IMG/VR virus record: IMGVR_UViG_3300009093_000039
Span: 62,001-126,000 of that record
DNA from: a virus
Length of the DNA: 64,000 nucleotides
Strand: one strand, 5' to 3'
Position numbers and translations under genes: made by a program. This document shows, piece by piece, positions 4,988 through 50,947 of this stretch; positions within the stretch are counted from its first letter, which is position 1; each line of letters begins with the position of its first letter. The notes beneath the pieces are model-generated. The model had not been told where the DNA came from and ran no database searches. It worked only from the letters and a program-made list of their open reading frames with translations.

Positions 4988-5017
4988 TCTCCTTCCCAAC
5001 TTTCCAACGGAGTCCAC

Positions 5018-23347: not shown

Positions 23348-23733
23348 TGACCTTCCAGGATCTTTTGCATGTGCTCGCTGACTTCCATGCTGATCGCCAT
23401 AGCGCCGCAGTTGGGGAAGTCGAAGAGCAGGAACTCGGGGCTGCGGATCAACAGGTTCCAGGTCTCGGCGCGACCGCGCTTCGACTCCATGAACGTGACG
23501 ATGTAGCCGCCCTTCGACTCGACCTTCATGCCGGAGAGGAAGAAGTGCCCGACGGGTTTACCGTCGCGCTTCAGCTCCCACATCTCGAACATGCAGATGA
23601 GATTGAACTTGGCGCCCAGCTCGTAGGTGCCGGGCTCCTGAGGTGTGGAGACAATCGCGTGCCCCTGACCCAGCCTGTGGAACAGGCCTGTCTCCCACGG
23701 GATCAGTGAGCGCAGGGTTGCGCCTTGGATCAT
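23344..23733 (-). CDS. Hypothetical protein next to the clamp
   Basis: The 129-residue alpha/beta protein starts with an ATG overlapping the clamp stop by four bases. It includes a strand-rich centre (YELGAKFNLICMFEMWELK) and FLLFDFPNCGAMAISMEV near the end. No family is recognised. Coupling to the clamp suggests a replication accessory role. Confidence 0.6.
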   Translation of the reverse strand: MIQGATLRSLIPWETGLFHRLGQGHAIVSTPQEPGTYELGAKFNLICMFEMWELKRDGKPVGHFFLSGMKVESKGGYIVTFMESKRGRAETWNLLIRSPEFLLFDFPNCGAMAISMEVSEHMQKILEGQ

Positions 23734-24818
23734 TGCTGGTTCAACGCTACGATTGCATTGGAGCCGGCCAGCGCGATGGACAGGAACGAACCGTCCACGA
23801 CGTTGAGCATCATCTCGTCCGACGCCCTGCTGATGAGCTCCTGGATGTAGTCGAGGTCGACCGTGAACGAGCGCTCCTTGGTCCCGCCCGTGCCGCCGGC
23901 GACCAGGGTCTTGACCTGGCCTTGGCCCGTCTTCACCAGCAGCTCCAGCTTGTCGCCCTTCGATCCCTTGGCGCTCGTGACCAGGATCTCGGCGCGCTCC
24001 TTGCCCATGACCGCGCGTGCGTTGTCGATGAAGGCCAGCATGTCCTTCTGGCCGACCTTGAAGGTCGTGGCCTTGACCGCCATCGCTTCCTTGATCTTGG
24101 CCCGCACCTGCTCGAGCGTCGGCAGGTCTTCCGTGTTCGGGAGCGACAGCAGGACGTTGACCGTCTTGTTCCTGACACGGATCGAGTTCTTCGTCAGGTG
24201 GATCACGAAGTTGCCCGTGTGGAAGACCTCGACCAGAGCCTTCGCGGTCTCGAGCGGCATCACGCACTCGAACTCGCCCTTGATCGTCTTGTCGTTGACC
24301 CAGCTCATGTGGGCCGCATCGTAGCAGGCCACGAACGCACCCGACGACGAGAGGCGAATGCCGACGGGCATCCACGCGCTGAGGATCGAGGTCGGCTTCA
24401 GCGTCACGTCCTTCAGCGCCTTGCGAAGCCACGTCGCCTGGTCGGCCGTCAGCTTCCAGTCCTGCGTCTCTTCCTTCGGCACTTCGTCTGGCGGCACCAC
24501 GTCGAGGGTCGCGAGGTCAGCCGTGTAGCCGCCGGCAGCCTTGACGTTGAGCGTGCCGTCCTTGTAGGCGAGGCTCAGCTCCTTCTTCCCCTTCGAGGCC
24601 GAGCGCAGCGACTCCATCGGGATCGCGAACTCGCCTTCGCCCTTCGACGTGCAGGGGATGACGACGGTGGCCCGGCTCAAGTCGGAGACGGAGTTGACCG
24701 TGACCTTGTTGTCCTTGATGCGGAACGTGACTTCGCCCTCGAACGGCGGCGCCGTCTTCGAGATGACGTCGAGGGCAGTGTGCAGTGCGTCGGTTTCGAC
24801 TTGGATGTTGAGAGCCAT
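23730..24818 (-). CDS. Beta-type sliding clamp
   Basis: The 362-residue protein has the length and threefold repeat of the bacterial DNA polymerase III beta clamp. Domain 1 (about 1-115) contains HTALDVISKTAP and VNSVSDLSRATVVIP, domain 2 spans about 120-250, and domain 3 (about 260-362) includes RSFTVDLDYIQELISRA and ends AIVALNQQ. T4 uses a shorter two-domain clamp, gp45, of about 228 residues. It should tether the phage polymerase. A GTAAATA promoter-like element lies 43 bases upstream. Confidence 0.8.
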   Translation of the reverse strand: MALNIQVETDALHTALDVISKTAPPFEGEVTFRIKDNKVTVNSVSDLSRATVVIPCTSKGEGEFAIPMESLRSASKGKKELSLAYKDGTLNVKAAGGYTADLATLDVVPPDEVPKEETQDWKLTADQATWLRKALKDVTLKPTSILSAWMPVGIRLSSSGAFVACYDAAHMSWVNDKTIKGEFECVMPLETAKALVEVFHTGNFVIHLTKNSIRVRNKTVNVLLSLPNTEDLPTLEQVRAKIKEAMAVKATTFKVGQKDMLAFIDNARAVMGKERAEILVTSAKGSKGDKLELLVKTGQGQVKTLVAGGTGGTKERSFTVDLDYIQELISRASDEMMLNVVDGSFLSIALAGSNAIVALNQQ

Positions 24819-33915: not shown

Positions 33916-34685
33916 TTCAGCTCTCCACGGGTGTGCTTGTCCTTGGCCTGCTGCAGCGTGCGCTGCGGAGTTGCGCCGAAGAAGAAGTGCCCGTCGGATT
34001 TCCAGTCCATGCAGATGTTCACACGCCAGAAGACGCCGGCGCGCTGGATCTCCCTGAAGTCCGTGTCGGTCAACCAGTTCTCACGCGCGAAGGTCTCCAT
34101 GGTTCTCGGGCCCACGACTTCCTTCGTCAGCTGCGCACGCACGCAGTTGAGACCCGCCAGCCAGGAGAGCAGGTCGGCGACCACGATCTTCGGATCGCGC
34201 GGCGTGGCCTTGAAGTGCATCTGGTGTGCCGTCTGGACCATGTGCGTCGTGATCTCGGCGAAGCCCGTGCCGACCCTGTACTCGAACTTGTAGTTCTCGG
34301 GATCGCCGGTGAAGCTCATCATCGTCATCAGCGTCGAGCGATCGATCAGACCCGCCGCCGGCGCCTTGAACGTCAGACCGTTGACGTAGATGGTCGGGTT
34401 CGACAGGTTGCGACCCTCGATCCCGCCGTTGATCCACTCGCGGCTCACATCGTTCCAGGCCACGTAGACGGGCTCGAACGACCACGCGTCCGACGTGATG
34501 ACCCAGGTCCCGGACTGGCGCTTCGGGTCCGCCAGAAACGCGCCGACGGAGTGGAACCACTTGCCGTTGAAGTCCTCGGGCATGGCGATGCCGAACTGGC
34601 GCTTGATCGTGATCGGCGACTTGTGGCCGTCCTCGTTCAGCAATGCCGCCGGCAGGTTCCGCATGGGGTTGTAGTCGTGGATCAT
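33912..34685 (-). CDS. Hypothetical protein
   Basis: The 257-residue alpha/beta protein contains ITSDAWSFEPVYVAWNDV, YKFEYRVGTGFAEITTHM and DGHFFFGATPQR. No family is recognised. It overlaps genes on both sides by four bases. Confidence 0.6.
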   Translation of the reverse strand: MIHDYNPMRNLPAALLNEDGHKSPITIKRQFGIAMPEDFNGKWFHSVGAFLADPKRQSGTWVITSDAWSFEPVYVAWNDVSREWINGGIEGRNLSNPTIYVNGLTFKAPAAGLIDRSTLMTMMSFTGDPENYKFEYRVGTGFAEITTHMVQTAHQMHFKATPRDPKIVVADLLSWLAGLNCVRAQLTKEVVGPRTMETFARENWLTDTDFREIQRAGVFWRVNICMDWKSDGHFFFGATPQRTLQQAKDKHTRGELK

Positions 34686-35071
34686 TTCTTCGACTCCTCG
34701 AAGTAGTACTTGTCAGCCGCGATCACGTCGGCAGCCACGACACCGGCCACCATGAGGGTCCGCACCTGGTCCTCGACCGTAGCCGTGAACCGCGGGTCCT
34801 TGTCGTCGAGGTAGCGACGGTGCGGGATCGTGAACTCGCCATCGGGCAGGTCTTTCACCTGCATGTAGGAGGTGCCGAACATGACCCGCTTGTAGACGAC
34901 CTTGCGCAGCTCGTCCAGCTCGTGGATCGAGTAGGCCTTGCAGCCGACCGGGTTCACGTTGGCCGGCAGTCCGGTGTGGCAGCTGAAGTCCTGGAACATC
35001 TGGTCAGCGCCGCAACGCGCATTACCCACGGCGTTCTGGTAGAAGTGCTTGCACGAATCACACCTGCTCAT
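34682..35071 (-). CDS. Hypothetical protein with Cys-rich N-terminus
   Basis: The 129-residue protein begins MSRCDSCKHFYQNAVG; C4, C7, C20, C31 and C44 could hold a metal. The rest is helical and acidic. It lies directly after the ubiquitin-like gene, one base apart. The function is unknown. Confidence 0.55.
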   Translation of the reverse strand: MSRCDSCKHFYQNAVGNARCGADQMFQDFSCHTGLPANVNPVGCKAYSIHELDELRKVVYKRVMFGTSYMQVKDLPDGEFTIPHRRYLDDKDPRFTATVEDQVRTLMVAGVVAADVIAADKYYFEESKK

Positions 35072-35395
35072 CTAGCGCTCCTTGACGAAGAAGCGCTGGC
35101 CTTGGAAGACCGGCATCGACTCGCCATCGTTGAGACCCACGTCGTAGCCGCCGCGCCGGAAGGTGACGCGACCGTCGGTCATGCCGGCCAGCTTGAGGAT
35201 CTTCTCCTTCGTCATCGACGGGTTGCCGACGTTGTAGAGCTTGCCATTGACCTCGATCTGCAAGCACTTCAGGGTCCCGGCCAACGGGTCTCGTTCCTTC
35301 GGCTTGCCGAAGATGCGGTCGTAGCCCTCGGCGTACTCCTTGGTGTTGGCCTTCGTCACCAGCTCGGCGCCCGTGATGTCGTTCTTGCGGCTCAT
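35072..35395 (-). CDS. Probable ubiquitin-like (multiubiquitin-family) protein
   Basis: The 107-residue protein has a short N-terminal part with EYAEGYDRIFGKPKERD, then a domain (about 43-107) that reads like the multiubiquitin beta-grasp family: LQIEVNGKLYNV (strands 1-2), PSMTKEKILKLAGM (helix), RVTFRRGGYD, LNDGESMPVFQGQRFFV. The VNGK-helix-GE-x-x-x-V-x-x-G-x-x-FF order is the signature I recall. No Gly-Gly C-terminus is present (it ends VKER), and no E1, E2 or JAB protease is recognised nearby. The start MSRKND overlaps nothing. The fold call comes from pattern memory. Confidence 0.5.
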   Translation of the reverse strand: MSRKNDITGAELVTKANTKEYAEGYDRIFGKPKERDPLAGTLKCLQIEVNGKLYNVGNPSMTKEKILKLAGMTDGRVTFRRGGYDVGLNDGESMPVFQGQRFFVKER

Positions 35396-35429: not shown

Positions 35430-36071
35430 CTAGTCCCTGGGCGGGAGAATGCCACGACTGATCAGCGCACGCAGCGTTGCTCGGATCTCTGCTTCGCGCT
35501 TGTCGTGTGGGAACAGCATCGGTATCCGGCACCGGCCATCAACCCACAGCAGCCCCTCCCAAAGAACGAGACCGCGGCCCACGATGTTGCGAATGACGTT
35601 GAGTCCCGTGCGCCAGGCTTCATCACGTTCTGCCTCGCACTGGGGCTTCGGTACCAGCGTGAAGTGCTCTTCCTCGGTGAGAGCGTGGCGCTCGAGATCG
35701 ATGAAGCCACGCTGCAGGCCCGCTATCATGTGCGTCTCGTCGACTGAGCAGTTCAAGTAGCATCCGGCCCAGTGCTTGACGATGATCTCGTGCCAGCGCG
35801 CGATGTGCTTGTCCTTCACGTTCACGTAGTACGGGACGCAGGCTCCGTGCTTCGGTACCAACGACGTGTCGAGCTTGTTGGTGACGAAGATCACGGTCTC
35901 GAGTCGAGCCACGATCTCCTCGAACGTCGGCCTATCCGGGTACATGTTGACAGCCACATCGGGACCGTGCATGATGATGTGGCTGACCTGGGCATCGAGG
36001 TATGCCTTGGCGAACCGACCGAAGATCCGATCCCAACCTTCGCGGTACGCATCGTTGGTGTGGCTGCTCAT
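35430..36071 (-). CDS. Hypothetical protein with EGWDRIFG motif
   Basis: The 213-residue protein begins MSSHTNDAYREGWDRIFG, sharing a motif with the ubiquitin-like protein downstream (EYAEGYDRIFG). The remainder contains TVIFVTNKLDTSLVPKHG and a repeat-free helical C-terminus. The short motif is, to my memory, common at the start of unrelated small phage proteins. The function is unknown. Confidence 0.6.
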   Translation of the reverse strand: MSSHTNDAYREGWDRIFGRFAKAYLDAQVSHIIMHGPDVAVNMYPDRPTFEEIVARLETVIFVTNKLDTSLVPKHGACVPYYVNVKDKHIARWHEIIVKHWAGCYLNCSVDETHMIAGLQRGFIDLERHALTEEEHFTLVPKPQCEAERDEAWRTGLNVIRNIVGRGLVLWEGLLWVDGRCRIPMLFPHDKREAEIRATLRALISRGILPPRD

Positions 36072-36072
36072 G

Positions 36073-37209
36073 TCAGTCCTTCTTCTCGGCTGCCGGGGCC
36101 ACCACGTTCTTGATGTAGCGGTAGATCTTCTGCGAGATCAGGGCGCCGGCGTCGACCGTGAAGTCCATCGACTCGTTCTTCAGCTGGACGGCCATCTCGA
36201 GCAGCCCGGCGTAGTGACCGAGAGGGATCTTCTGGCCCTTCGTCTTCTCCCAGGCCATGCGGCACACCGGAGCCCAAATGAGCTTCGGGTGCTTCTTGCC
36301 GTTGAGGACGATCATGTTGAGCATGAAGTTCGCGGCCATCACCATCTTGTTGATGGCCTGGAAGCTGTCGCCGATGTCGAGGATCGCGAGCTGCGCCTGC
36401 GTGAACTTGCCGACGAGCGCAGACGAGAGGATCGTGGCCACGGCCGCATCGTCGTTGCCCTCGATGCTGGTCAGCACCTCCATGAGGGCTTCCTCGTCCA
36501 GCTTCTTCGGCTTCTTCTCCAGCCCCTCGTAGTACTCGGAGATGGCCTGCAGTTGGTTCGCGATCTCGCGCATGGTGCCAGCGCGCTCCACGACCTTGGT
36601 CAGGAGTTCGCTGTCCTTCATGTACGTCATCTCTTCGCCGACGACGATGCGCTTCGCCATCTTCATGAGATCGGACTGCGTGTGCGGCGGAAGGACGAAC
36701 TGCGTGCAGCGGCCGGCGATGGCCTTGCCTTCGGTCGTGGTCTGGAACTTGCCCGGGTCCATCGAGCACAGAATCCAGATGGTGTCCCTGGTGCCCGAGT
36801 CCTCGATGGGCTTCAGCAGCGCTTGCGCGGCCGGCTTGTTCGTCAGGATCGACTGCGCCTCGTCGATGACGAAGATGCGCTTGCCGCCACCCATAGGCTT
36901 GTGTCGCGAGTTCTGGATCAGCTCGCGCATGTCATCGATGGTGCGCTGCGAGCCGCCGTCGATCTCGCGGTACGTGCCGTTCCGCACCTGCTCGGCGATC
37001 GACTTGCCGTTGATGGCCGTGGCGATGCAGCGCGCCAGCGTCGTCTTGCCCGCCGATGGTGCGCCAGTCATCAGCATCGCCGACGGCCAGTTGCCCTTGG
37101 CGATGATGCCCTTGACACGGGTCACGGCCTGCTCGTGGCCGATCATCCGCTCGAAGGTCTCGGGTCGGTAGCGCGTGTGGAAAAGTGCGCTCTTCACTTC
37201 TTGCGTCAT
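36073..37209 (-). CDS. Clamp loader AAA+ subunit (gp44/RFC-like)
   Basis: The 378-residue AAA+ ATPase begins FHTRYRPETFERMIGHE, the classic clamp-loader N-terminus. Walker A GAPSAGKT lies at 49-56, Walker B FVIDEAQ (113-119) and sensor 1 near ILCSMDP. Loaders have SRC and zinc variants; here the sensor-1 region shows RCTQFVLPPH. It should open the beta-type clamp encoded at 24818. No small loader subunit is recognised. A GTAAATA element is 25 bases upstream. Confidence 0.85.
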   Translation of the reverse strand: MTQEVKSALFHTRYRPETFERMIGHEQAVTRVKGIIAKGNWPSAMLMTGAPSAGKTTLARCIATAINGKSIAEQVRNGTYREIDGGSQRTIDDMRELIQNSRHKPMGGGKRIFVIDEAQSILTNKPAAQALLKPIEDSGTRDTIWILCSMDPGKFQTTTEGKAIAGRCTQFVLPPHTQSDLMKMAKRIVVGEEMTYMKDSELLTKVVERAGTMREIANQLQAISEYYEGLEKKPKKLDEEALMEVLTSIEGNDDAAVATILSSALVGKFTQAQLAILDIGDSFQAINKMVMAANFMLNMIVLNGKKHPKLIWAPVCRMAWEKTKGQKIPLGHYAGLLEMAVQLKNESMDFTVDAGALISQKIYRYIKNVVAPAAEKKD

Positions 37210-42892: not shown

Positions 42893-45800
42893 ATGAGCCA
42901 CATCCAGATCACGGACGCCGGCGTCGCCCTCATGGCAGCGTCGGAGTCGCCCATCGTGCTGACGAGCTACAAGCTCGGCTCCGCATACGGCTACATCCCA
43001 ACCGCGGGTCAAACCGCACTGCAAGGCTCGGTCGTCGCCACTGGGGTCCCGGGTGCCCCGGTGATCCAGACCTCGAACACGGTCCTGTATCCGACGCTGC
43101 TGGGTCAGAGCGATGGCCCGTACACCTTCGGTGAGATCGGCTACTACTACGGGTCGACGCTGTTCGCCGTCCTGGTGCTCGACACGCTGGTGACAAAGAC
43201 TCCGCTCGACGTCAACACCAACGCGGGTGGTGCGATTGTCATCGACGCGTTCGTCCCCATGGTGGGATCGAACTACCAGATGTGGGCGAACGTCAGCCAG
43301 TCCAACATCAACAAGGTGAGCGTCGCTGCCGGCCCGGAAGCCCTGCCCTACAGCGTCAACTCGAACCCGAACGTCTTCATCGTCCAGGCGTACGGCAGTG
43401 CCAAGCCATTCCTGGCCTACACCGACCGCCTGGGTCTCTGGACCTTCGACGCCTACGACAAGAGCAACGACGTCGTCACCGTCGGCAACAGTGTCACCGC
43501 CGTCACCATCACTCTCAGCGACTACGGGTCGCTGAACTTCACTACGGTCGGGTCTCTGCTGCTCCAGTTCCAGGACGGCATCAACGCTGCGGCTGTCCGC
43601 TACGTGACGGCGGCGACACCTGACGGCCATGGCAACATGGTCCTGACGCTGAACGCTCCGCTGACTCGTGCGTCGAACAACGGCGACCGCCTGGGCATCT
43701 ACGTCCCGACCACGACCGTCATCAACGAGGGTGGCGGTGGCGGTCAGGACCTGACCAACCTGCCGCACATCCCCAGTCTGCCGTCGACCAGCGCGCAGAT
43801 GCCGGTCGTCATCAACGGCACGGTCTACCAGTGGAACCTGGGCGAGCTCACGACCTGGCTCTCGCAGCAAGGCTTCAATCGTCCGCCCACGGGCACCGAC
43901 TACACGGTCGGTACGCTCGACTCGGCAGGTCAGCTCACGGGCAACCTGTACTCGACGATCTCGGACCCGGATGCCGATCCGCTGACGCTGCAGACCATCG
44001 GCTACACGAACGACGGTGGTGCCTTCACCACCTACGACCCGACCCAGGGTTCTGTGCAGCTGACCCTCGGCGTCTTCTTCGTCGATCCGACATCCGGCAA
44101 CTGGACGTTCACGCTGGGCCAGGGTGCGCGTGCGCTCAACACGGGCGACATCGGGCACGAGATCATCACCTACGTGATGGCCGACGGCAAGGGTGGCATC
44201 CGCACCAACCACCTGACCATCACGGTCACAGGCACGAACCAGGCGCCGATCGTCTCGTTCGTCAACAGCGGCACGCCAACGAACACGACGGTCAGCGGCA
44301 ACCTGATCTACCGCCTGGCCTTCGACTACGAGACCACGCCCTCGATCGCAGGCTACACGGTCGCCGGCATGACCGGCACGTTCACGGGCACGACCACCAT
44401 CACGGTCGGGTCCACGACCTACGGCCAGATCAGCATCGCTTCGGACGGCACGTGGTCGTTCGCTCCCGCACAGGACTACGTGGGTCCGGTTCCGACCGTG
44501 ACCTATAACGTGACCGACGGTGTCAATGTCGTCCCGTCGTACCTGACGCTCGCCGTCACGCCCATGATCTCCGGCTCGCAACCGCAGATTCTCGGTACTG
44601 ACGTCGTGGCTGGTCCGACGACCGGCGGTGAGAACAACCAGGGCATGTACCTGACGATTTACGGTCGTCGTTTCGGCCCCAACTCGGGCATCGGCACCAA
44701 CACCAAGGTCTTCATCGGTGGCGTCGAAGTCGTTCACTACATCCAGATGGTGGACGATCAGCTGGCTCCGAAGTTCAGCGGCCTGCAACGCATCGACGTG
44801 CGCGTCGGCGCTCTCGGGTCTCCGGTTCAGGGTGAAGCCCTCCACATCAAGGTCACCTACGGCGGCCAGGACTCGAACCAGGACTTCACGTTCACGCCGA
44901 ACCCGGGTCGCTTCCTCTACGTCTCGCACGCGGGCAACGACACGACTGCGGTCGTCGGCGACATCACGCATCCGTTCCGAATGCTCCAGTATCCGACACG
45001 GACGCAGCGCTCGGTCTACACCGAACTCCTGGCTGGTGACACCGTCATCATCATGGACTCGGACGGCCAGCCGTGGACCGACATCGGGTACAACTCGACG
45101 TGGTTCCGCTTCCGTGACCCGCAACAACAGGGCAAGGCCCCGACCGGCCAAGCTGGTACCGGCTGGATGACCTTCAAGGGTTACCCCGGCCAGTACATCC
45201 ACTACATCACGACCGGCAACGATCTGGCGGGTGGTCTCCAAGGTCCGGGCTCTGCCTTCACTGGCACGTGCGGTGACTGGGTGGCGGTGTCGAACCTCAA
45301 CATGGAGGTTCAAGGTGGATCGCGGCGCGATGCTGGCCCGATCAACATGCAGTACAACTCGGAGCGCTGGCGCATCACGGGTTGCAACCTCGGTCCCTGG
45401 GTCGCGGGTAGCTCCGCAGTTCTGAACGCGGCATGCATCACGGGTGAAGGCAACTTCATCTACATCGCGTTCAACAAGATGCACGACATCGAGGGAACGT
45501 CGGCACTACAGAACCACGGCATCTACGCGGGCACGACCAGCTACGGCTGGGAGATCTGCTTCAACTGGATCACCAACTGCATCGGTGGCTCGCACATCCA
45601 GTTCAACGACTCGGACGGCGGCACCAACATCTTCCAGACGCCCTACGGTGTGTGGACCGGCTTCACCAACATCAAGATCCACCACAACTGGCTGGACACG
45701 AGCGCGAAGTACGGCATCCTCTTCGCCGACATCAACACCGGCAACGGTGGTCAGCTCGACTTCCTGGTCTGGAACAACATCATCCTCAACACGGGGCTGG

Positions 45801-47569
45801 CACCGCTGCGTCTCAACACCAACACGACGACATCGAGCGGTCTCTACGCCTTCAACACGTGCTACAACTGCGTGCAGGTCGACCAGGCAGGCACGGGCAA
45901 CGGCTTCCTCCGCAACGAAGGCAACCAGAGCGCGCCCGGTCACGTCATCCGAGCCTACAACAACATCTTCGCCTGCGGTCCACAGACGACGACCAACGCG
46001 ATGCACTGGTTCGTCGCATCCAGTGACAGCACAGGCTCCGATGGCTACGACCTGAAGCGCAACGTCTACTGGGCGGCTGGTCGCACGATTCCCAACGACT
46101 CGACCGAGACGATGGGCATCTACGGCGATCCGCTGTTCACGAACGTCAGCACCGCGGACTTCAGTCTGCAAGCCTCCAGCCCAGCGCTGAACGCGGGCAC
46201 GTACCCGCTGGGTTCGCTGCTGAACGTGGTGGACGACTTCACGGCCATGAACACCCGCCTGTACGGAGGTGCTCCTGACTGTGGCGCTCTCGAGCGCGCG
46301 GTCTCTACCCCGTTCAACATCACGGCACCTGCGTTCTCAGGTGGCCCGCAGGTCGGAGTCTCGACATCGGGTGGTCTCGGTACCTGGGGCAACAGCCCGA
46401 CTTCGTACCGCACCGACTGGACGGTCAACGATGTCATCAAGGCCTCGTTTTTCAACTCGAGCGGCACCAGCAGCTACACCCCTGTGGCTGCGGATGTGCG
46501 CTACGTGCTGAAGGAGGTCGTGACAGCGACAAACGGAAGTGGCTCCAGCCAGTTCACGCGAGTCATCGGCACGATCGCCATGGGCGTTGGCGGTCCCGTC
46601 AACACGAGCCTGCCCACTATCTCGGGCACAGCTCAGGTCGGCAACGTCCTGACCTGCAACCCGGGCACGTGGAGTGGGTCCATCACTGGTGGCTTCCTGT
46701 ACCAGTGGTATCGTGTTGTCTCTGGCGTCGCGACTGCACTCGGGTCCCCGACATCGAGCACGACCTACACGTGCACGAACGGCGACTACCAGAACACGCT
46801 GCTGTGCGAAGTTCAGGCCGTGAACACGACGACCGGCAACGGCATCGTGCGCTCGGGTCAGACCGCTACCGTGATTGCGGGTGTGGCCAATCCGACTCTG
46901 GTCTCGGGTCAAGTTGCGACCGCGGTTCCGACCTCGAACACGAACAACACGATCTCGATGCCGAACCCAGTGAGTTCCGGCAACGCCATCGTCTGTGTCG
47001 CGCAGTCGTGGGACAACGCACCGGACAACGGTCGCATCACCGACACCCAAGGCAACGTCTACGCGGGCTTTGGATCGGGCTCGACCGGTACGTACACCAT
47101 GTACGCGCGGGCGCCGGTGCCGGACTCGAACAACCCGAACTCGCAGTTCTTCGCGGTCAGGCTCACGGCTGACCAGACGACCTACACGACGACCTACAAC
47201 CCTGCGGCTATCGCTTCGGGTGCGTTGATCTTCGTCGAGATCACGGGTGTGGATGTCACCACGTTGGTCGACGTGCCGCAGTCGAGTGCGACCTCGAGTT
47301 CTCACGGCACGGCCATCGCTCTCGTTGGCTCGACGCCGAACACGAAGGCGACGGACTTGGAGCTGGTGCAGGTCACGGTCGAGGGTACAGGCGTCACGTT
47401 CAGCGGTCTGCCTGCGGGCTGGGTCCAGGTTGGCATCATCAGCAGCGCCTTCTCCACGCTGGCGCTGTTCGCCAACAAGGCATCGACAATCGAGACCCTG
47501 AACTTCAGCTGCACGGCTTCGGCCTCTGTCGGTTGGACGGCTCAATCTCTCATCATCAAGGGGGCCTAA
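42893..47569 (+). CDS. Giant modular tail fibre/tailspike protein
   Basis: The 1558-residue protein starts with a domain (1-~210) shared with the gene at 47888 (IQITDAGVALM, PFLAYTDRLGLWTFDAY). Then come Ig/cadherin-like repeats (about 350-560, including VTGTNQAPIV), an IPT/TIG-like domain (about 563-670), a right-handed beta-helix (about 672-1135: VSHAGND, IHHNWLDTSAKYGI), Ig-like repeats and a final beta sandwich. The beta-helix is also present in the genes at 50944 and 53781 and suits a polysaccharide-binding or depolymerising tailspike. A aaggacc ribosome site precedes the start. Confidence 0.75.
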   Translation: MSHIQITDAGVALMAASESPIVLTSYKLGSAYGYIPTAGQTALQGSVVATGVPGAPVIQTSNTVLYPTLLGQSDGPYTFGEIGYYYGSTLFAVLVLDTLVTKTPLDVNTNAGGAIVIDAFVPMVGSNYQMWANVSQSNINKVSVAAGPEALPYSVNSNPNVFIVQAYGSAKPFLAYTDRLGLWTFDAYDKSNDVVTVGNSVTAVTITLSDYGSLNFTTVGSLLLQFQDGINAAAVRYVTAATPDGHGNMVLTLNAPLTRASNNGDRLGIYVPTTTVINEGGGGGQDLTNLPHIPSLPSTSAQMPVVINGTVYQWNLGELTTWLSQQGFNRPPTGTDYTVGTLDSAGQLTGNLYSTISDPDADPLTLQTIGYTNDGGAFTTYDPTQGSVQLTLGVFFVDPTSGNWTFTLGQGARALNTGDIGHEIITYVMADGKGGIRTNHLTITVTGTNQAPIVSFVNSGTPTNTTVSGNLIYRLAFDYETTPSIAGYTVAGMTGTFTGTTTITVGSTTYGQISIASDGTWSFAPAQDYVGPVPTVTYNVTDGVNVVPSYLTLAVTPMISGSQPQILGTDVVAGPTTGGENNQGMYLTIYGRRFGPNSGIGTNTKVFIGGVEVVHYIQMVDDQLAPKFSGLQRIDVRVGALGSPVQGEALHIKVTYGGQDSNQDFTFTPNPGRFLYVSHAGNDTTAVVGDITHPFRMLQYPTRTQRSVYTELLAGDTVIIMDSDGQPWTDIGYNSTWFRFRDPQQQGKAPTGQAGTGWMTFKGYPGQYIHYITTGNDLAGGLQGPGSAFTGTCGDWVAVSNLNMEVQGGSRRDAGPINMQYNSERWRITGCNLGPWVAGSSAVLNAACITGEGNFIYIAFNKMHDIEGTSALQNHGIYAGTTSYGWEICFNWITNCIGGSHIQFNDSDGGTNIFQTPYGVWTGFTNIKIHHNWLDTSAKYGILFADINTGNGGQLDFLVWNNIILNTGLAPLRLNTNTTTSSGLYAFNTCYNCVQVDQAGTGNGFLRNEGNQSAPGHVIRAYNNIFACGPQTTTNAMHWFVASSDSTGSDGYDLKRNVYWAAGRTIPNDSTETMGIYGDPLFTNVSTADFSLQASSPALNAGTYPLGSLLNVVDDFTAMNTRLYGGAPDCGALERAVSTPFNITAPAFSGGPQVGVSTSGGLGTWGNSPTSYRTDWTVNDVIKASFFNSSGTSSYTPVAADVRYVLKEVVTATNGSGSSQFTRVIGTIAMGVGGPVNTSLPTISGTAQVGNVLTCNPGTWSGSITGGFLYQWYRVVSGVATALGSPTSSTTYTCTNGDYQNTLLCEVQAVNTTTGNGIVRSGQTATVIAGVANPTLVSGQVATAVPTSNTNNTISMPNPVSSGNAIVCVAQSWDNAPDNGRITDTQGNVYAGFGSGSTGTYTMYARAPVPDSNNPNSQFFAVRLTADQTTYTTTYNPAAIASGALIFVEITGVDVTTLVDVPQSSATSSSHGTAIALVGSTPNTKATDLELVQVTVEGTGVTFSGLPAGWVQVGIISSAFSTLALFANKASTIETLNFSCTASASVGWTAQSLIIKGA

Positions 47570-47887: not shown

Positions 47888-50800
47888 ATGAGCACCATTC
47901 AGATCACCGATGCCGGTCTGGCGTTGATGCAGTCGGCCGTCGAGCCGATTGTCCTCACCAGCTTCAAGCTCGGGACGGGCGTCAACTACATCCCCACCGG
48001 TGGGCAGACGGCGCTGCAAGGCTCGATCGTCTACACCGGCGTCCCAGGCGCTCCCGAAATCCAGGACGGCAACACTGCCCTGTATCCGATCCTGCTGGCA
48101 GCCGACATCGGCCCGTACACGTTCGGTGAGGTCGGCTACTACTACAACACGACCCTGTTCGCGGTCCTGGTCTTCGAGCACACGATCACGAAGTCGCCGC
48201 TGGACGAAGTTGCCGGCACCGGTGGCCCCATCGTCATCGATGCGTTCCTGCCGATGGTGGGCGCCAACTACCAGATGTGGGCCAACGTCGCGCAGTCGAA
48301 CACGAACCGCGCGTCCGTGGTCTCGGGCCCCGAAGGTCTGCCGTATTCGGTGAACTCGAACCCCAACCTCTACATCGTGCAGGCCGTCGGGAGCGCCAAG
48401 CCGTTCCTGGCCTACACCGATCGGCAGGGGCTGTGGAACTTCGACGCCTGGAACGAGCAGCTGTCGACCTCCACTCTCCACTCGTCGACTACCGCGATCA
48501 CGGTCGATCCCACTGACTGGGCGACCGTCACCTACGGCGGCTCCGACACCGTCATCATGCAGGTGGGCACGGGCCAGAACGCTGCGGTGTGTCGCTACGT
48601 CACCGCGGTCTCGGCCGACGGCTCGGGCAACACGGTCCTGACGCTGAACGCACCGATGACCCGCGCCCTGGTTGACGGCACGGTCGTCAAGTTCTACGTC
48701 CCCTACTCGGCCACAGGTGGCGTCGCGCCCCCGCTCCCGAACGATGCGACGTTCCTGACCCTGAGCGTCACCAACACGATCAGTGGCAACGCCTTCACGG
48801 CCTTCATGGCTTCGCCGCCGCCCATCGGCAACGTCGCACCCAGCAGCGGCAAGTTCACGACGCTGCAGGCATCGGGCAACGTCAACCTCAGCGGCAACGT
48901 GACCCTGGGTGCGGTGACTGCGACCTCTATCAACGGCGCCATCATCGGCGGCACGACAGCAGCTGCGGGTCACTTCACGACTGTCTACGCAGGTGACGTG
49001 CAAGCGACACAAGCCGAGATCGCGACCCTGACCGTCAACACGTTGATGGACATCGAGGCTCCGCTGCAACTGTCCAATGGTCTCGGCACTGCAGGCCAGG
49101 TCCCGACCAACACGGGTGGCGGTCACATCGTGTGGGCGACTCCGAGCTCGGGCTCCAGCTTCAACCCTGCGGCCCCCGGCCCCATCGGTGGCACCACGCC
49201 CTCGACCGGCACGTTCACGACCATCACGGCTGCCAACTTCGTGGCCACCGGTACCCTGAGCCTGAACGGCACCGTCGGCACCGCGGGTCAGGTCGCAACC
49301 TCTGCGGGTCCTGGTCAGCCTGCGACCTGGACCTCGATCCCAGTCGTGTACCCGAACCTGAACCAGCGCATGACGCAGGTCCAGAAGACGCTGCGCAAGA
49401 GCATCAACTCGTATCGTCCCGAACCTGCGGCGACGCAACGCCAACTCGCCTATACGAACTACGAAGGCGCACGGAAGACCAACACCGACGGCGCAATCCA
49501 GGTGTGGGAACCGGATGCCAGCGGCTTCTACGGCAAGGCCTGGACTCGCGATCAGGCGATGGCGATGGAGGGATACCTCGAGTACTTCACGCAGACCGAG
49601 ATCCAGGCCGTGGCCTCGTACTGGCTGTCGAAGTCGAACCTGGGCACCGGCGAGGTGCCGGACCACATCGGTCACGACGGCACGGTGTACTGGAAGCCGG
49701 GTTCCAGCTCGGACGTGGGTTCGCGTGCTCCGGTCGACGGCAACTTCTTCCTCATCCAGATGTGGTGGCTGGCCTACGTGTCCGGTGGTTCGACTGCAGC
49801 TTCGGCCGCGACGTACTCGACCAACAAGGTGGCGCTCAAGGGCCTGGTCGAGACCGGTGTCACCTACGACGGCACGACCGGACTGGTCACCATCTCCGAC
49901 TCGACTCCGTTCGTCGGCTTCGGCTTCTACGACTCGGTGACGCTGACCGGCAAGGTCCTGTTCCCATCCATTCTCGCAGTCCGCGCCTACCAGATGCTGG
50001 CCGAGATGGAGTACGCGCTCGCCAACTACAGCGAAGCCAATCGTCTGCTCGGTGTCGCCGACACGATCAAGGCCGGAATCAACTCGACCCTGGTGCATCG
50101 TCGCCCCGCTACCGGTGGTGAACTCGCCGCCGGCTACAACGCGCGCGAGATGGCCTACGGTTATCTGGCGACGACCAAGGGCGCGAACCAGATCGACCTG
50201 TGGTCCACGCCGTATCTGGTGTGGTGCGACATCGTGAGCGAAGCTGACGCACGCGCCATCGGGAACTACCTGTACTACGCGCTGACATCGACGACGGACA
50301 ACTACTTCCGTGGTGGCATCCGTTCGATCGACAAGGCGACGGACTACAACCCGGGTGTCGCCTGCTACCAGACGTACTTCATCACCACGGCCTACGGCAC
50401 GTACCAGAACGGTGGCTTCTGGCCGACGCCGATGCCATGGGTCATCGATGCCATCGCCAAGATCGATCCCGCGAAGGCGAGGGCCAAGTACCTGGAGATG
50501 CACTCCTACAGCCTCGAGCAGGGAGCGAACAGCCTCAACGAGTGGTGGAACACGACCGGCACATTCGGCGCGCAGAAGTACCTGACCTCGACGGCCGCGC
50601 TCCTCTGCGCGAATCAGCCGAATGGTCCGATGCTGCAGGTCGAGGAGTGGCCTGGGATCTATCGCACGGTCGCGAACGAGACGCTGACGCTGGTGCTCAG
50701 TGCCCAGTACGACGGCATCATCACGCAGACGCTGACCAAGTGCGCATCGGGCTCCTGCACACTGGCCTTCGCAATCAACGGAACGCAAATCGGAGGTACC

Positions 50801-50947
50801 GCGAACTCGGTCACGACGGCTGCGAACACGCAGTCGCACACGTCGGGCAACACGTTCAAGAAGGGCGACACGATCACGATGACCGTGACCTCGAACTCGA
50901 GCTGTGTTGACATCTCCTTCATCATGACCATCCTGCGTGCAGCATGA
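47888..50947 (+). CDS. Tail fibre with probable six-hairpin glycosidase domain
   Basis: The 1019-residue protein has the same N-terminal domain as the gene at 42893 (IQITDAGLALM, PFLAYTDRQGLWNFDAW), a repetitive beta region (about 280-490, SSGKFTTLQASGNV), then from about 500 to 930 a helical domain reading like an (alpha/alpha)6 toroid: AWTRDQAMAMEGYLEYF (D near 553), GHDGTVYWKPG, GNFFLIQMWWLAY, REMAYGYLATTKG and NEWWNTTGTFG (E near 884). A small beta domain closes it. This fits a polysaccharide-cutting tail enzyme; the exact glycosidase family is not certain. Likely attaches through the shared N-terminus. Confidence 0.7.
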   Translation: MSTIQITDAGLALMQSAVEPIVLTSFKLGTGVNYIPTGGQTALQGSIVYTGVPGAPEIQDGNTALYPILLAADIGPYTFGEVGYYYNTTLFAVLVFEHTITKSPLDEVAGTGGPIVIDAFLPMVGANYQMWANVAQSNTNRASVVSGPEGLPYSVNSNPNLYIVQAVGSAKPFLAYTDRQGLWNFDAWNEQLSTSTLHSSTTAITVDPTDWATVTYGGSDTVIMQVGTGQNAAVCRYVTAVSADGSGNTVLTLNAPMTRALVDGTVVKFYVPYSATGGVAPPLPNDATFLTLSVTNTISGNAFTAFMASPPPIGNVAPSSGKFTTLQASGNVNLSGNVTLGAVTATSINGAIIGGTTAAAGHFTTVYAGDVQATQAEIATLTVNTLMDIEAPLQLSNGLGTAGQVPTNTGGGHIVWATPSSGSSFNPAAPGPIGGTTPSTGTFTTITAANFVATGTLSLNGTVGTAGQVATSAGPGQPATWTSIPVVYPNLNQRMTQVQKTLRKSINSYRPEPAATQRQLAYTNYEGARKTNTDGAIQVWEPDASGFYGKAWTRDQAMAMEGYLEYFTQTEIQAVASYWLSKSNLGTGEVPDHIGHDGTVYWKPGSSSDVGSRAPVDGNFFLIQMWWLAYVSGGSTAASAATYSTNKVALKGLVETGVTYDGTTGLVTISDSTPFVGFGFYDSVTLTGKVLFPSILAVRAYQMLAEMEYALANYSEANRLLGVADTIKAGINSTLVHRRPATGGELAAGYNAREMAYGYLATTKGANQIDLWSTPYLVWCDIVSEADARAIGNYLYYALTSTTDNYFRGGIRSIDKATDYNPGVACYQTYFITTAYGTYQNGGFWPTPMPWVIDAIAKIDPAKARAKYLEMHSYSLEQGANSLNEWWNTTGTFGAQKYLTSTAALLCANQPNGPMLQVEEWPGIYRTVANETLTLVLSAQYDGIITQTLTKCASGSCTLAFAINGTQIGGTANSVTTAANTQSHTSGNTFKKGDTITMTVTSNSSCVDISFIMTILRAA

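Follow-up and report, generated by a model that had tools for sequence, protein, structure and literature searches.

Ubiquitin-like proteins encoded by phages are already known, e.g. the tail assembly protein I (TAPI) of phages lambda and T1 (Iyer et al. 2006; PMC1779556). TAPI is related to ThiS/MoaD, bears a conserved C-terminal glycine and is encoded within the cluster of tail genes, where its neighbour TAPK has JAB and NlpC/P60 domains (PMC1779556). In bacteria, the Bil and CBASS conjugation systems are antiphage (PMC13373217, PMC10097602), and no protective effect against phage has so far been demonstrated for the Bub pathway (PMC13373217). CBASS is countered by Vs.4 of phage T4 through cGAMP binding, and not by ubiquitin mimicry (PMC10097602). 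We found no earlier account of a phage-encoded domain of the Multi_ubiq type, i.e. the type present in the bacterial Multi_ubiq/BubA proteins of Bub operons.

The 107-aa protein described here resembles TAPI in that it is a phage protein with a (predicted) ubiquitin-like beta-grasp domain, but it is of another type and occupies another place. Its domain is Multi_ubiq-like, it ends in VKER without a terminal Gly, and its gene lies in a replication-gene region, where the neighbours encode a clamp loader and two proteins matching no known family. BilABCD and CBASS Cap2/Cap3 represent the kind of host system that would be open to a ubiquitin-like decoy; the phage protein itself is no component of such a system, and the ThiF/E1 and Prok-JAB enzymes were not found in the record.

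The analysed stretch of DNA (the window; 64,000 nucleotides) corresponds to positions 62001-126000 of a virus record of 139,364 bases. The ORF call places the gene of the 107-aa protein on the minus strand, at 35072..35395, with its ATG at 35395 and a TAG stop at 35074-35072. A Shine-Dalgarno-like sequence, AAGGAACAAGG, precedes the ATG, and the stop codon abuts the ATG of the following gene (at 35071). A second virus record (L009) contains a copy of the region with 98% identity, and between the two versions of the gene there are four codon changes, all of them synonymous and in third positions; nonsynonymous changes are absent. The gene is therefore under purifying selection, as judged from this comparison, and the ORF is a real gene. 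An unexpressed ORF, or the decaying remnant of a longer modifier gene, might be suspected from the C-terminal tail, which is short in comparison with bacterial domains, and from the occurrence of the domain in one phage lineage only. We give this explanation hardly any credence, considering the pattern of codon changes, the ribosome-binding-like site, the stop-to-start contact with the next gene and the presence of an intact ORF in both virus records.

The upstream neighbour (35430..36071, minus strand) encodes a 213-aa protein, which starts with MSSHTNDAYREGWDRIFG and contains the second half of a module motif discussed below (window positions 36018-36059). Directly after the stop of the 107-aa gene begins the downstream neighbour (34682..35071, minus strand), whose 129-aa product has a Cys-rich N-terminus. 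The gene under study is located one gene after that of a DNA polymerase clamp loader (phrog_5846, E 1.7e-64; 36073..37209, minus strand), which served as the synteny anchor for the comparison with a related record, L010. The window also contains, as context only, a gene for a DNA polymerase processivity factor/sliding clamp (phrog_947, E 1.6e-12; 23730..24818, minus strand), as well as one for a DnaB-like helicase. By the clamp loader, the nearest cultured relatives are jumbo phages of 221-264 kb, namely Achromobacter phage Motura and the Burkholderia phages BcepSauron and BcepSaruman, with about 40% identity of this protein. Elsewhere in the window, two adjacent plus-strand ORFs, 42893-47569 (1558 aa; no PHROG match) and 47888-50947 (1019 aa), begin alike, with MSxIQITDAGxALMxxxxxPIVLTSxKLG; their common start shows 78% DNA identity over 220 bp, as in a duplicated fibre gene.

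Residues 43-107 of the protein (35075..35269, minus strand; ending ...GQRFFVKER) constitute the putative ubiquitin-like domain. The initial annotation, made from the letters alone, had proposed a Multi_ubiq/beta-grasp pattern for this part, and the proposal was borne out by a curated profile, by a profile of our own and by structure comparison. Pfam Multi_ubiq (PF14452) matches residues 46-104 with 31 bits (E 3e-7; gathering cut-off 24.5), and a search of the whole record with the same model gave a single match, at 25.8 bits, also over the cut-off. An HMM built by us from 30 Multi_ubiq domains of bacterial genomes scored the ORF at 30.5 bits (E 1.7e-8), which was the sole significant match in a six-frame search of the window (778 segments); the next-best segment reached 4.9 bits, and the maximum for 5000 shuffles of the phage domain was 7.0 bits. 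As judged by its sequence, the domain thus belongs to the Multi_ubiq family. The motifs listed in the initial annotation (VNGK, PSMT, LNDGE and GQRFF) and the lack of a terminal Gly-Gly are as described there.

The predicted fold agrees with this assignment. In the best full-length AlphaFold2 model, computed from the single sequence, the blocks of the domain mostly have pLDDT values of 81-91 and follow the order b-b-a-b-b-b, which is that of a ubiquitin-like beta-grasp; it was the one good model of five (means 70, 52, 51, 47 and 46). Modelling of residues 40-107 alone gave the identical order of elements in the best model, with five evenly scored models (mean pLDDT 60-67). In the Foldseek comparison with solved structures, the best matches were bacterial multi-ubiquitin (BubA-type) proteins. 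They took the top four positions for the full-length model, including 9cd2 (E 1.4e-4) and 8u38, and the top 11 also contained BubA entries 9d5a, 9d5b, 9d59 and 9ea8 and one engineered ubiquitin variant, 6cpm. For the domain-only model, 9cd2 was again first (E 1.0e-3). Neither a predicted fold other than beta-grasp nor an absence of relation to ubiquitin-like profiles was seen.

The beta-grasp fold is very common, and the identity between the phage domain and the bacterial Multi_ubiq domains is low, about 20-30%. One may therefore ask whether the protein is a decoy for some other beta-grasp pathway, or a convergent fold merely scoring as Multi_ubiq. We consider this improbable. The match to the sequence profile is independent of the fold and lies far above the shuffles. 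Moreover, VIA-align Z values obtained with the full-length model were 9.9-10.8 for bacterial multi-ubiquitin and at most 8.0 for eukaryotic ubiquitins, which came next at Z 7-8, i.e. 2 to 3 units lower; with the domain-only model, the bacterial proteins (Z 7.6-8.0) had merely a narrow lead or were level with other ubiquitins. The position of the phage domain in trees varies with the taxa included. A placement among C-terminal or internal bacterial domains was considered and dropped, since the domain, found with C-terminal bacterial domains in a first tree, moved elsewhere in a larger one, and HMMs made separately for the two kinds of domain gave it similar scores (15.4 and 16.8 bits).

Searches for relatives in other phages gave little. 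A tblastn search of the domain against 50,697 phage genomes produced chance-level matches only, and two bacterial multi-domain proteins used as queries had no match in the same 50,697 records. No PHROG profile matches the bacterial or the phage domain convincingly, no hit below E 0.001 was obtained in the viral structure library, and no PADLOC model matches the phage protein. Single-sequence scans found the near-identical phage only among viral contigs, and nothing among genome contigs. PF14452 matched none of the 39 records holding proteins with the N-terminal module described below, where no control matched either. Rare phage relatives may nevertheless exist, since tblastn, PHROG and viral structure searches are weak at 25% identity. 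A tblastn match in a Microcystis phage was discarded as a relative, as it is not Multi_ubiq by Pfam.

The initial annotation had described a single domain standing alone in a phage gene train. This holds as far as the surroundings are concerned, i.e. a replication-gene region in a record without ThiF/E1 or Prok-JAB matches; within the protein, however, the domain does not stand alone but is fused to an N-terminal module, which that annotation had overlooked. Only one Multi_ubiq domain is present, and tandem repeats are absent. Being single is not a distinguishing trait, as had been supposed, because single-domain proteins are also normal among the bacterial Multi_ubiq proteins compared, so that tandem repeats do not strictly define the family. 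What sets the phage protein apart is its short C-terminal tail.

In the phage domain, five residues follow the Phe of the last strand and the final residue is Arg (FFVKER). By contrast, all 22 bacterial terminal domains compared, including those of single-domain proteins, extend 8-10 residues past this Phe and end mostly in Ser, otherwise in Gly, Ala or Leu. The phage tail is thus 3 to 5 residues shorter than every one of them and has no terminal Ser or Gly, which makes conjugation of the phage protein unlikely. If it is through these tails that the bacterial proteins are conjugated, as known ubiquitin-like systems lead one to expect, conjugation of the usual kind would be impossible for the phage protein.

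This bears directly on the possibility that the protein is a real modifier, activated by the ubiquitin-like machinery of the host, trimmed or not, and attached to targets. The domain is of a modifier family, and some of its bacterial single-domain members adjoin ThiF-domain genes: we found ThiF in a neighbouring gene at three such loci, L141 (with DUF6791), L149 (with a weak Prok-JAB match) and L107, while at a fourth single-domain locus, L138, a DUF6527 gene is nearby. On the other hand, the phage protein ends too early, in a residue unlike the Ser, Gly, Ala or Leu of the bacterial domains, and has nothing past this Arg to be trimmed. No match to ThiF/E1 was found in the 139-kb record, which is possibly incomplete (control: matched in 12 of 14 genomes). 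We rejected the modifier role as very unlikely, on account of the short tail. The same record, with the same reservation as to completeness, contains no match to Prok-JAB, the one protease family searched for (control: matched in 8 genomes). Prok-E2_B and Prok-E2_A had no match there, but they matched no control genome either.

Bacterial Multi_ubiq/BubA proteins (9cd2, 8u38, 9d59, 9d5a, 9d5b, 9ea8) remain the closest described counterparts, being the best fold match of a domain that scores above the curated cut-off. The present protein differs from them, apart from its tail, in being phage-encoded and in carrying its domain behind a phage module, in a record without a ThiF or Prok-JAB gene.

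This module comprises residues 1-33, MSRKNDITGAELVTKANTKEYAEGYDRIFGKPK (35297..35395, minus strand), and includes a low-confidence helix at residues 19-28 in the model. It was first noticed as N-terminal-only matches in phage pf16 and in MW202481. In the 107-aa protein it reads KNDITGxELxTK...YxxGYDRIFGK, in accordance with the module pattern KND[IV]TG...[YWF][DE]xIF[GR] starting at residue 4-5; the wider pattern across small phage proteins is KND[IV]TGDxIxTK...YxxN[WY]DxIFGK. When IMG/VR was scanned with an alignment of three sequences, 203 relatives were obtained, and 80 were kept. The loci (L001-L093) contain 56 distinct phage ORFs with the module, whose motif begins at residue 5 in all but one (55/56). 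Pseudomonas phage pf16 gp60, for example, has the same 33-aa N-terminal module, with the motif from residue 5. None of the Pfam, PHROG or NCBIfam models matched the module in the members tested. In bacterial genomes it is nearly absent, having been found on two phage-like MAG contigs.

What follows the module is highly variable. The C-terminal parts of the 56 ORFs are short tails in 21 cases, sequences with at least two CxxC-type motifs, as in zinc ribbons, in 13, tails of the YELNKSTGEV type in eight and other sequence in a further 13; the ubiquitin-like domain occurs in one, that of the present phage, and so distinguishes this lineage from all other proteins of the NDITGD-module type found.

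The most informative comparison is that with L010, whose clamp loader is 69% identical to that of the window. Just downstream of it, L010 has a gene with the same module (79% DNA identity over 81 bp), which encodes a zinc ribbon where the gene in the window encodes the ubiquitin-like domain. Since the two share the module and differ in the C-terminal part, the module was kept and the cargo exchanged. Together with the fusion of the module to varied domains, the zinc ribbon of L010 gives, at the sequence level, the pattern of a putative docking tag with exchangeable cargo.

Based on these observations, we tentatively prefer, among the readings considered, to regard the 107-aa protein as a small, two-part, non-enzymatic decoy or adaptor, which is non-conjugatable and possibly directed against systems of the Bub/Bil type. 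Residues 1-33 would be a docking-type module, put by phages on many different small proteins, and residues 43-107 a Multi_ubiq-family domain stopping short of the conjugation tail. The domain would bind those components that recognise bacterial ubiquitin-like proteins, i.e. a ThiF/E1-type enzyme, a protease or the BubA filaments of Bub/Bil-like operons, yet would itself not become attached to any target; the module would tether it to some common target of phage or host origin.

It is nearly as likely, because of the replication region and the zinc ribbon in the relative, that the domain simply mediates protein-protein interactions within the phage replication or host-takeover machinery, having come from a bacterial Multi_ubiq gene by capture and lost any connection with conjugation, and that the module docks it to the replisome, to transcription or to some other partner. 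The position of the gene, one gene after the clamp loader and in a window with sliding clamp and DnaB-like helicase genes, fits such a role. So do the other tails on most module proteins and the zinc ribbon that L010 has at the corresponding place, which indicates a cargo independent of ubiquitin biology. It is harder to reconcile with a domain whose score has remained over the Multi_ubiq cut-off and whose closest solved folds are those of bacterial multi-ubiquitin and not of other beta-grasp adaptors, although these observations are compatible with more than one kind of binding partner.

In favour of the decoy reading, candidate targets exist in bacteria: Multi_ubiq was over the cut-off in 17 of 399 genomes (about 4%) of an order-level sample (Burkholderiales order) around a Sulfuritalea MAG and in 12 of 398 genomes of a phylum-level sample, and the nearest cultured relatives by the clamp loader infect Achromobacter and Burkholderia. 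The ThiF genes beside three of the single-domain loci and the purifying selection on the phage gene are also in line with it. Several points weigh against it. As most of the sampled genomes have no Multi_ubiq system, the phage would seldom meet one, and for the Bub pathway itself an antiphage role is so far undemonstrated (PMC13373217). The zinc ribbon of L010 would be equally expected of a general interaction domain, and the identity of about 20-30% to bacterial domains and the unstable tree position also count against a decoy.

Mimicry or blocking of a host antiphage system, as suggested in the initial annotation, is plausible. A more far-reaching form of this idea, which we regard as rather unlikely, is phage anti-defence by ubiquitin mimicry, in which the tail-less Multi_ubiq domain would jam an E1, a protease or a filament after delivery by the docking tag, with the cargo swapped among related phages and the tag serving many small takeover proteins. 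Should the domain indeed bind the ubiquitin-like machinery of bacteria, it could serve as a naturally occurring probe of the interaction surfaces. Such binding would also be a sign that phages meet these systems, with a bearing on the question of an antiphage role for Bub operons.

The second half of the module deserves separate attention. Alone, as [N]DAYREGWDRIFG, it is found near the N-terminus, in the middle or at the C-terminal end of additional phage proteins, and a conserved protein of Myxococcota and other deltaproteobacteria carries it C-terminally. The appearance of the motif at varied positions in many proteins points to a short linear motif whose partner is widely shared, and its form, Y-x-x-[GN]-[YWF]-[DE]-x-I-F-[GR], looks like one. 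The DxIF motif may resemble the sliding-clamp-binding motif of T4. As dozens of uncharacterised phage proteins have the module and the Y-x-x-[GN]-[YWF]-[DE]-x-I-F motif, and some myxobacterial/deltaproteobacterial proteins have the motif at the C-terminus, knowledge of its partner would give a lead to function for all of the motif-bearing proteins at once.

The myxobacterial/deltaproteobacterial protein (L095 5748-6065, L096 5698-6084, L098 2592-3060 and L099 5571-6077) ends in HKGPxxVxTxAYRxGWDEIFG..D[LMV]N and belongs to no Pfam family; the gene neighbourhoods of these motif proteins gave no clue to their role. Small phage ORFs at four loci (L133, L134, L135 and L136, around base 5001) have VNDAYREGW[DE]RIFG either centrally or at their C-terminal end and lack the NDITGD half. 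Finally, the tails of the module proteins of L026, L044, L051, L060, L061, L086 and L088 have a second short motif, YEL[ND]KSTGEV.K, which may be another docking motif.
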